Virus record (IMG/VR): IMGVR_UViG_3300046413_000510
Location: 1 to 55,509 of that record
DNA from: a virus
Strand: one strand, 5' to 3'
Length of the DNA stretch: 55,509 nucleotides
A program made the translations under genes and the position numbers. The notes beneath the pieces are model-generated. The model ran no database searches and was not told where the DNA came from. It worked only from the letters and a program-made list of their open reading frames with translations. Positions 26,863 through 44,926 of this stretch are shown in pieces (position 1 is the stretch's first letter; each line of letters opens with the position of its first letter).

Positions 26863-26940
26863 CTGCTCGTAGCTCAGTTGGATTAGAGCAACAGCCTTCT
26901 AAGCTGTGGGTCGTAGGTTCGAGTCCTACCGAGCAGGCCA
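26863..26940 (+). tRNA. tRNA-Arg (anticodon TCT), CCA encoded
   Basis: The acceptor stem CTGCTCG pairs perfectly with CGAGCAG, followed by discriminator G and an encoded CCA. D stem GCTC/GAGC, anticodon stem ACAGC/GCTGT with loop CTTCTAA (anticodon TCT), variable loop GGGTC, T arm GTAGG/CCTAC with loop TTCGAGT: a complete cloverleaf. It reads AGA, which is by far the commonest arginine codon in the genes of this window, so it likely supports phage codon use. A reading frame across it (26778-26999) is not a gene. Confidence 0.95.
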
Positions 26941-43104: not shown

Positions 43105-43247
43105 TAATGTTTATCCCTAGTCTCGCTATAACCATAATCCATAACAATACTTATAATAGTGAATATGACACCTAATGCTATTATTCCCCATAGACCTTTG
43201 TCATACTCAACAAACAACATATGATATAACATTTCTAAGCCATTCAT
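43104..43247 (-). CDS. 47-residue membrane protein between gp33 and gp59
   Basis: Its ATG overlaps the gp33 stop (ATGA) and its TAA overlaps the gp59 start (TAATG), so it is coupled at both ends. The product has one hydrophobic segment (GLWGIIALGVIFTIISIVM) after a short Met-rich N-terminus and ends in DYGYSETRDKH. Unknown function; perhaps anchors replication proteins to the membrane. Confidence 0.65.
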   Translation of the reverse strand: MNGLEMLYHMLFVEYDKGLWGIIALGVIFTIISIVMDYGYSETRDKH

Positions 43248-43462
43248 ACAGGTAAAGTACCACCTTTCTTAATCTTAAGCATATTGGCATTTATAGCCTC
43301 AGCTTTGATTTTTTCTTTTAGTGATTTTGAGATTAATCTTGAAGTAGTTTCTACTTCAATGTTTTGAGATTCACAATAGTGTACTATTGCGTCAATATAA
43401 GTTATTGGTTTTTTTTCTTTAACTATATCGTTTATTTTATTTGTAAATTCTTTGCTATTCAT
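43244..43462 (-). CDS. gp33: late transcription co-activator gp33
   Basis: A 72-residue protein (T4 gp33, 112) that links RNA polymerase to the sliding clamp on late promoters. The match is with T4's C-terminal core: ITYIDAIVHYCESQNIEVETTSRLISKSLKEKIKAEAINANML (T4 SYLEATTAFLEENSI..IIEKIQSEAIDENLL). ATG at 43462; a GTG extension to 43528 would run into the tmRNA 3' hairpin. Order with gp59 and gp32 is as in T4. Its presence supports the TATAAATA promoters listed here. Confidence 0.8.
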   Translation of the reverse strand: MNSKEFTNKINDIVKEKKPITYIDAIVHYCESQNIEVETTSRLISKSLKEKIKAEAINANMLKIKKGGTLPV

Positions 43463-43500
43463 ATTATATAATATATCACTTATTCTATTAAATGTAAAGC

Positions 43501-43528
43501 GTGGTGTTTCTGTTGCCAAGTACACCAC
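43501..43528 (-). terminator. hairpin at the 3' end of the tmRNA coding piece
   Basis: Seven-base-pair stem GTGGTGT/ACACCAC with a 14-nt loop, followed on the minus strand by GCTTTACATTT. It could be a weak terminator or a processing stem of the tmRNA coding piece. Confidence 0.45.
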
Positions 43529-43548
43529 AAAACTCCGTCACCTATTAA

Positions 43549-43602
43549 CTAGGCAGCAATAGCAAAATTTTCGTTGCCATTTAAAATTGCGTTTGAGTTC
43601 GC
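43549..43602 (-). other. ssrA: tmRNA tag-peptide reading frame
   Basis: After AATAGTTG, resume codon GCG starts the frame ANSNAILNGNENFAIAA, then TAG. AN at the start and a small-residue AIAA end are the usual form of ssrA degrons (compare E. coli AN...LAA). Reading either other frame gives no such tag. Confidence 0.87.
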
Positions 43603-43666
43603 CAACTATTACTCTCTATAAAGTCTTTCAATACGAGTCGAACCTACCACACCCCCCATAAGCACA

Positions 43667-43765
43667 TTATTTACAAAGGTCTTCGTACTTTGTAGTATGT
43701 AGTCTATGTTTACTTAAATCACCTTGGTGTTTGATAGTAAACAAATTTAGAAACCATTTTAACAT
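43667..43765 (-). CDS. 32-residue ORF inside the tmRNA spacer
   Basis: In the spacer between the two tmRNA pieces an ATG with a well-placed GGAG (6 nt upstream) opens a 32-codon frame ending TAA: MLKWFLNLFTIKHQ.. then a polar, basic remainder. It would be released when the precursor is processed or be translated from it. It may be chance, but the ribosome-binding site is among the better ones locally. Confidence 0.45.
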   Translation of the reverse strand: MLKWFLNLFTIKHQGDLSKHRLHTTKYEDLCK

Positions 43766-43857
43766 ACTAATCTCCTACAATGTGTTTATGGTGGAGGTGG
43801 TGGGAGTTGCACCCACGTCCTCTATACCTATTATACTCTACGTCAACAAGTAATTCT

Positions 43858-44202
43858 TTAAGTACCTAATTTATTCTTATAAGTTAAATCAAAAGAATGA
43901 GATACTATACAACTTTCGGAACCTGATGGTGCCGTTAGGACTATCAAGTGTTCCTCACTGCCATTAGTGAAAGTGGTAACATAGTAAGCTGGTGGGTTAT
44001 CTGCGATAGCACCCTCCCTCGCTATAGAAAATGTTTCAGGTTCAAAACCAAAGTCTTGAATATACTGATTTACAATTTCACTAGGTCCACATTGCGCTGG
44101 CAATCCCATAGGCGCTAAACCATAATTTCTTTTTAATTCGTGGTCAGCTTGGGCTGTAAACGCAATCACACTAAACAAAAGTGTTATTATTATTTTATGC
44201 AT
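43858..44202 (-). CDS. small exported protein of unknown function
   Basis: A 114-residue protein with a standard signal peptide (MHKIIITLLFSVIAFTAQA, cut before DHELK). The mature part has two Cys (AQCGPSEIV; SESCIVSHSF) likely to form a disulphide in the periplasm, and an ETFSIAREGAIADNPPAYYVTTFTNGSEEHLIVLT core. Family not named by me. Lies directly upstream of the tmRNA on the same strand; a late promoter may lie within the exonuclease gene 78 nt upstream. Confidence 0.68.
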   Translation of the reverse strand: MHKIIITLLFSVIAFTAQADHELKRNYGLAPMGLPAQCGPSEIVNQYIQDFGFEPETFSIAREGAIADNPPAYYVTTFTNGSEEHLIVLTAPSGSESCIVSHSFDLTYKNKLGT

Positions 44203-44242: not shown

Positions 44243-44926
44243 TTAATTTTCTAGCTTTGTTTTATTAAGTTCTTCATAATATTTATAAAAGTCCTTAATG
44301 GCTTTTTCTAGTTGTGACAAGTATTCTGATTTTTGTTTTACAAAACTATTACAACTACCATCTTCGCCTGCTTGTAGTACAACAATTTGTTCTATCGGTT
44401 TACCGAATAGCTCTTCATACATAATTGCATAAGCAGAACATTGTAAGTAGTATGATTCATTCCAACTATCAATACGTTCTTTGTTTGCTGTTTTGAAATC
44501 TATTACTGATAATTTACCATTGTACTCTGCAATACAATCAACTTGACCAGCAAGGGTCAGTTTGTGTGAGTACATAATCTTTTCAAGACAATGTATATTA
44601 TCAACTTGGTCTAGGTATGGTTTCATCAACTTAAACATACCATTTGGTAGTACGTCTTTAATAGTTTGTTGTTGACCTTTTAAGTATTGCTCAACAAGTG
44701 TGTGTGTTGCTTTACCTCTACGTGCCGCTCTGGCCATTTCCCATTTGGCAGCCTCTTCACCAACATTCTTACGCCACTTTTCTAGGCCTGCTTTCTTTTG
44801 AATACCTAAAATTGTGGTTACAGATGGATAGTGTTTGCCATCTACGGCATAAAACCTAAAACCATTCTGATTCATTCCCTTTGTATTTGGGAATTTACTC
44901 TCATCTAATTGTATAAAATTCTTCAT
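44243..44926 (-). CDS. PD-(D/E)XK nuclease (RecB/Cas4-like exonuclease)
   Basis: A 227-residue protein. Nuclease motifs: GKATHTLVEQYL (H75 region), LAGQVDCIAEYNGKLSVIDFKT with D130, D143 and K145, then a YYLQCSAYAIMY helix typical of RecB-family single-domain exonucleases (QxxxY). Marine T4-like phages often carry such a nuclease for recombination or host DNA breakdown. It begins within the stop of a 33-codon gene (TAATG). Confidence 0.85.
   Translation of the reverse strand: MKNFIQLDESKFPNTKGMNQNGFRFYAVDGKHYPSVTTILGIQKKAGLEKWRKNVGEEAAKWEMARAARRGKATHTLVEQYLKGQQQTIKDVLPNGMFKLMKPYLDQVDNIHCLEKIMYSHKLTLAGQVDCIAEYNGKLSVIDFKTANKERIDSWNESYYLQCSAYAIMYEELFGKPIEQIVVLQAGEDGSCNSFVKQKSEYLSQLEKAIKDFYKYYEELNKTKLEN
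44280..44287 (-). promoter_or_regulatory. possible T4-type late promoter inside exonuclease gene
   Basis: Minus-strand TATAAATA within the last 45 nt of the exonuclease gene, 77 nt before the small exported protein. The only element of this kind found inside a coding region; could drive the exported protein, or be chance. Confidence 0.4.

Follow-up and report, generated by a model that had tools for sequence, protein, structure and literature searches.

The window, i.e. the whole 55.5-kb virus contig analysed here, carries T4-like genes for baseplate, tail tube and gp33, as recognised by PHROG matches. Across the region described below, its nearest isolate is Pelagibacter phage Mosig EXVC030M (72.5% identity, with 67% of 7 kb covered), with HTVC008M next, and the virus is probably a T4-like pelagimyophage of the Kyanoviridae whose host group is among the abundant ocean bacteria. 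On the minus strand, a PD-(D/E)XK-type exonuclease gene (44243-44926) lies upstream of a gene for a small hypothetical protein (43858-44202), which ends ~6 nt ahead of a tmRNA gene. The 3' neighbour of the tmRNA gene, on the same strand, encodes a T4 gp33-like late-transcription regulator (43244-43528; PHROG 254, E 1.6e-22; synteny in relatives); its listed ORF overlaps the tmRNA 3' end, and the PHROG match and the relatives start at about codon 20. Mosig shares the gene order exonuclease, small protein, tmRNA (annotated as SsrA) and gp33. Two other RNA elements were noted: a lone tRNA-Arg (TCT) gene called by ARAGORN at 26863-26940 on the plus strand of the window, opposite to the adjoining tail genes, and, in phage Mosig (L002, 2605-2812), a manA RNA motif (RF01745, 64 bits) between annotated genes.

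The tmRNA gene extends over approximately 43852-43498 on the minus strand and is circularly permuted and two-piece. ARAGORN calls a permuted tmRNA ('tmRNA*') at c43458-43885, and cmscan matches the full models of both RF04321 (tmRNA_permuted, positions 1-213; 97.5 bits, E 9e-18, gathering 47) at 43851-43549 and RF01849 (alpha_tmRNA; 75.3 bits, E 1e-18, gathering 50) at 43898-43498. The first-pass annotation, made from the letters alone, had read a permuted two-piece tmRNA on a T4-like phage and had named ARAGORN, RF01849 and conservation of the acceptor stem and tag in related phages as checks. All three are positive, and RF04321 agrees. Its location of the tmRNA was right, but its coordinates, 43529-43830, left out both ends of the gene.

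The tRNA-like 3' (acceptor) piece comes first (43789-43852, minus strand, from the RF04321/RF01849 alignment and the sequence), with the T arm GGACGTGGGTGCAACTCCCAC, CACCTCC, the discriminator A and CCA (43791-43789). It is followed by a 132-nt spacer (43657-43788, minus strand, from the sequence and relatives) and then by the mRNA-like 5' piece (43498-43656, minus strand, from ARAGORN, Rfam and alignment), comprising the acceptor 5' strand GGGGGTG, GGTAGGTTCGAC, the tag and a 3' hairpin. The strands CACCTCC (43799-43793) and GGGGGTG (43656-43650) form 7 bp, with A-CCA at 43792-43789; this arrangement, an acceptor end ahead of its 5' partner with a single G-U, is seen in the sequence just as first described. 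The sole G-U is G3-U70, an identity position of tRNA-Ala. The PK2-like 3' hairpin CTTGGCAACAGAA, at ~43523-43499, agrees with relatives. From the window, viral contigs and Mosig, 21 distinct spacer/5'-end variants of the tmRNA were gathered. Their alignment keeps the 5' piece and the CAACAGAA hairpin, and about 20 distinct relatives keep the acceptor, G3-U70, the tag with its stop, the 3' hairpin and the spacer stem. HTVC008M also has a permuted tmRNA (L443 / NC_020484, 145161-145370; RF04321, 90.6 bits) that is missing from the record annotation; a separate antisense match between the clamp-loader region of HTVC008M and tmRNA query positions 188-233 (E 2) was judged to be chance.

ARAGORN and the comparative alignment place the tag frame at 43549-43578 on the minus strand, with GGC as the resume codon: the 9-aa tag GNENFAIAA (43578-43552) is followed by the stop TAG (43551-43549). 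In 21 distinct relatives, the region aligned with the alphaproteobacterial resume codon is GGC, GCA or GCT, and the relatives' tags (GNSNFALAA, GEDNFALAA, ANDNNFALAA) likewise end in a hydrophobic-Ala-Ala degron and a stop. The first-pass annotation had proposed a 17-residue tag, ANSNAILNGNENFAIAA, and the upstream frame is indeed open in the window. However, in several relatives a 1-nt indel, a deletion, throws the 8 codons preceding GGC out of frame and leaves everything from GGC onward intact, and the alphaproteobacterial model alignment also sets the resume at GGC. The tag is therefore GNENFAIAA, and the longer version is extremely improbable.

It is plausible that the phage rescues ribosomes with a tag of its own. 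An SmpB gene was not found in the window or in the three complete relatives searched (Mosig, Melnitz and HTVC008M), so host SmpB would be needed for such rescue. A specific host as the source of the tmRNA was considered and rejected: in two AT-rich alphaproteobacterial genomes of 1.2 Mb, whose tmRNAs have the tag ANESYAIAA and a very short spacer, identity to the coding piece is just 82% across 44 nt. This match suggests, but does not prove, a SAR11 ancestry of the phage tmRNA.

The two ends of the spacer form a stem, CATAAACACATT / AATGTGCTTATG, with 11 of 12 pairs formed in the window; in the smallest relatives there are just 24 nt from CCA to the 5' G (CCA-TAAACACATTTATGTGTGCTTATG-GGGGGTG). 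An alignment of 19 distinct arm pairs has 93.9% of its cells paired, and at five of the 12 pairs both partners have changed, for example from U-A to A-U or from C-G to G-C/A-U. Its covariation score of 0.288 exceeds that of shuffles (0.108 +/- 0.021) and of slid arms (0.064 or less). The register of the 3' arm was picked for each sequence as the best pairing of three offsets, which favours the pairing percentage, so the both-side changes and the sliding control weigh more. RNA folding also predicts the acceptor stem as extended by the spacer ends (-63.7 kcal/mol, z -2.2). The spacer stem is a conserved RNA structure that presumably serves maturation.

The window has ~105 extra bases in the loop of the stem, among them an SD AGGAG (~43776-43772), an ATG (43765), 32 codons and a TAA (43669-43667). 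This nested ORF (43667-43765, minus strand; MLKWFLNLFTIKHQGDLSKHRLHTTKYEDLCK) was missed by the first-pass annotation. Its stop codon falls at the 3' strand of the stem, ~10 nt ahead of the mature 5' G. The window insert passes a test for an SD followed by an ORF of 25 or more codons, as do only 0.12% of its dinucleotide shuffles. A search for a known function of the nested protein gave no match in Pfam, PHROGs or PDB, and weak matches to other spacer ORFs (E 0.003-5) were disregarded. An intron-encoded homing endonuclease was considered and rejected, as the ORF has only 32 aa and no Pfam match, and an Rfam search at E up to 1 found no group I or other intron family in the spacer.

The nested protein belongs to a family of phage small proteins, defined here by the C-terminal module DLSKHRLHTxxYEDLCK, the relatives of which were sought by degenerate DNA patterns. 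There are seven further distinct nested versions besides that of the window. The family is nested in tmRNA spacers in ~16 viral contigs and free-standing in 11 others, in several of which it lies between endolysin and the PD-(D/E)XK-type exonuclease gene, directly upstream of the latter. Counted over 53 loci (on overlapping contigs), there is one family copy each, 38 nested and 15 free, and both together in none; the window has no copy at the free-standing upstream site. Where the contigs with free copies show the tmRNA (L210, L287, L291, L386 and L393), the family is absent from the spacer, which in L210 is ~29 nt. Diverged pairs of the 32-codon nested version give dN of 0.05-0.12 and dS of 0.23-0.77, and the free-standing copies retain DLSKHRLH[TS]xxYEDLCK with many codons differing, the synonymous change being large and partly saturated. 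Judging by these codon differences, the nested ORF, with its conserved C-terminal module, is under purifying selection at the codon level.

The family also reaches a cultured phage, through contigs L459 and L504, in which a nested 52-aa ORF, MRQWLLNLKFVVITKDYFAERQRKADAKIPKYLSGDMSKHRLHTTKYEDLCK, joins the C-terminal module of the window to the spacer ORF of Melnitz. The C-terminal 15 codons of this ORF encode a peptide identical to that of the window with four synonymous differences, and its N-terminal part is 68% identical over 38 aa (E 2e-9) to the spacer ORF of four Melnitz isolates. Over 36 codons, the comparison with Melnitz gives 14 synonymous and 11 non-synonymous codon differences (dN 0.27, dS 2.5). 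The Melnitz spacer ORF (MFKWLSKTRLVV...), at which the Melnitz records annotate SsrA alone, is SD-led, is without the last module and extends into the 5' piece. This truncation, a 1-nt deletion in the L510 copy and a 13-codon spacer ORF, MLKYWLYLWRKYR, that retains the SD, at L396 (3283, plus strand) and eight further loci suggest that some copies may be decaying. Close relatives with no spacer ORF include Mosig, with its 44-nt spacer, and several with spacers of 24-34 nt, and the ORF is thus unnecessary for tmRNA function; in all, many relatives have an ORF-less spacer of 24-47 nt.

A different gene is nested in L291 (3998-4200), where the 203-nt spacer holds a 62-aa ORF with a weak SD; genes homologous to it stand on their own immediately 5' of the tmRNA in L386 (61% identity) and Melnitz (59%). 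Taken with the family above, at least two unrelated phage genes thus occur both free and within the spacer. Elsewhere, differing SD-led, putatively coding spacer ORFs are found (MFNWIKNYFDKWVKKEEERRIRYLSGKGK, MEKFFLRFKWYRNYVENAEKKRIKYLGL, a 21-aa hydrophobic ORF and the 96-aa ORF of L398), and further hydrophobic spacer ORFs terminate in the 5' piece. Such SD-led spacer ORFs, mostly hydrophobic, 21-96 aa in length and in some cases reaching into the mature 5' end, were noted in L398 (8156, plus strand), L415, L416, L418, L423, L432 and L467 (10688, plus strand), and contigs L398, L415 and L432 carry phage-family proteins. In L069 (2526, minus strand), a tRNA-like acceptor piece is followed by an SD-led ORF (MFIIRKILEW...KIPKYLSGRRGMME), downstream of which no mRNA-like piece was recognised by motif or ARAGORN.

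Taking these observations as a whole, we consider it highly probable that a phage two-piece tmRNA uses its spacer as the gene for a conserved small protein, with translation and processing possibly competing. The alphaproteobacterial-type permuted gene, seated between the phage exonuclease and gp33 genes, would give a transcript with paired acceptor strands and an additional stem made by the spacer ends. Excision of the spacer by RNase P and 3'-processing nucleases of the host would yield the two-piece tmRNA, for which homology predicts charging with alanine and, together with host SmpB, addition of GNENFAIAA to stalled products. In this phage clade the spacer would not be waste, as it holds an SD and a 32-codon gene. 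With both in the spacer, a single transcript could serve as tmRNA precursor and as mRNA, and the ORF may be translated either before the precursor is cut or after the spacer has been released. Because the stop falls at the stem's 3' strand, ~10 nt short of the 5' cut site, a ribosome reading the ORF would be expected to melt the stem and, on finishing, to cover that site and prevent cleavage, so that protein and tmRNA would be made at each other's expense. That the protein has a function, and that its translation is coupled to processing, is what we infer, the coupling from the geometry of the locus. A more elaborate version, which we think rather unlikely, is a dual-function precursor in which a regulatory protein would be made only before cutting and ribosome occupancy would gate maturation, tying the supply of tmRNA to free ribosomes in infection.

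There is about an even chance that the nested gene is simple cargo at a tolerated insertion site, with a protein that acts independently of the tmRNA, for example in host takeover, and no coupling. The anatomy is common to this reading and to competition between translation and processing; the two differ in the last inferred step only. The occurrence of the same families as free-standing genes elsewhere in the genome is consistent with cargo, as is the variety of small ORFs, some hydrophobic, that fill spacers. Against this, the recurrent association across divergent tmRNA clades fits coupling, and so does the stop of the contained ORFs, 22-31 nt ahead of TCGAC, although the stem alone could also force that placement. 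It is quite improbable that the phage has just an ordinary copy of a two-piece tmRNA from the alphaproteobacteria, with a chance insertion in its spacer, roleless and open by accident. Two-piece tmRNAs are already known in pelagimyophages (PMC9004378), and many relatives have short spacers with no ORF, but the presence of an SD, the rarity of such ORFs in shuffles, the homologues that keep the peptide while their codons diverge, the free-standing copies and the second nested gene family (L291) largely refute this as to coding status. A decayed or non-functional tmRNA, such as a transduction relic, is very improbable indeed, for although its T-loop and D-region depart from the Rfam consensus and its bit score is below those of the alphaproteobacteria among the matches listed (about 145-167 bits), its functional elements and spacer stem are kept in ~20 distinct relatives and the stem covaries.

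The permuted tmRNA gene gains a protein-coding layer, in that the part normally discarded can hold conserved phage genes, in viruses whose hosts probably include some of the ocean's most abundant bacteria. For a phage tmRNA, the finding makes a link from translation to RNA maturation open to test, and it presents a noncoding RNA gene as a site where small phage genes enter and leave. The Melnitz records, as the cultured example, suggest that small genes are hidden when the entire span is annotated as a single tmRNA feature. The annotations of the related records examined make no mention of a spacer gene, and a text search of open-licence papers found no report of an ORF in the spacer or intervening segment of a permuted tmRNA. 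The two-piece phage tmRNA itself was already known; what appears to be genuinely new is a tmRNA gene whose excised spacer carries genes.

The statement of the first-pass annotation that phage tmRNAs are usually one-piece is broadly true overall, but two-piece marine phage tmRNAs had been published: according to PMC9004378, 53 of 133 unique phage tmRNAs were called two-piece, 50 of those 53 being marine or aquatic, and two-piece ssrA genes were described in Methylophilales phage Melnitz and Pelagibacter phage Mosig, the records of which annotate SsrA at the locus. As in the window, these are alphaproteobacterial-type permuted tmRNAs upstream of gp33 in T4-like marine phages. In the Melnitz spacer, too, an SD-led ORF of this protein family begins, whereas Mosig has its 44-nt spacer and no ORF and the window has a complete 32-aa nested gene; the available text of PMC9004378 makes no mention of a spacer ORF. 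Control of the window tmRNA by a glutamine riboswitch, as that paper describes for Melnitz, was considered and rejected, since no match was found near the tmRNA or in the window. In Melnitz (L125, 2354-2402), a glnA glutamine riboswitch (RF01739, 52.8 bits) is situated 3' of the tmRNA, where the RF01849 match ends at 2346, and upstream of gp33; control of the downstream genes is therefore likelier than control of the tmRNA, contrary to the wording of PMC9004378.

The permuted tmRNAs of alphaproteobacteria (RF01849; RF04321, the unified permuted model with its database in PMC11915505) share with the window the gene order, a T arm-CCA ahead of a GGGG 5' end, a tag and a 3' hairpin. A permuted tmRNA match was found in 359 of 385 alphaproteobacterial genomes. 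Among the best ~150 of these 359 matches, which our statements on bacterial spacers cover, the matched span is mostly 185-250 nt and exceeds 300 nt in two, against 303 in the window. Unlike the window, most of those listed have a short spacer, and three with long spans (two >300 nt, one 289 nt) have no SD-led ORF filling it. This survey was used in place of 37 genome-contig loci, which were set aside as a spacer control because the search pattern allowed short gaps only and so biased them. Some tmRNA genes contain a group I intron that encodes a LAGLIDADG homing endonuclease (PMC11915505). In these the intron is in the T-loop region and its product is a nuclease, whereas the window has a permuted-gene spacer with no Rfam intron match and a small non-nuclease ORF; they resemble it in having a protein gene within the removed part of a tmRNA gene.
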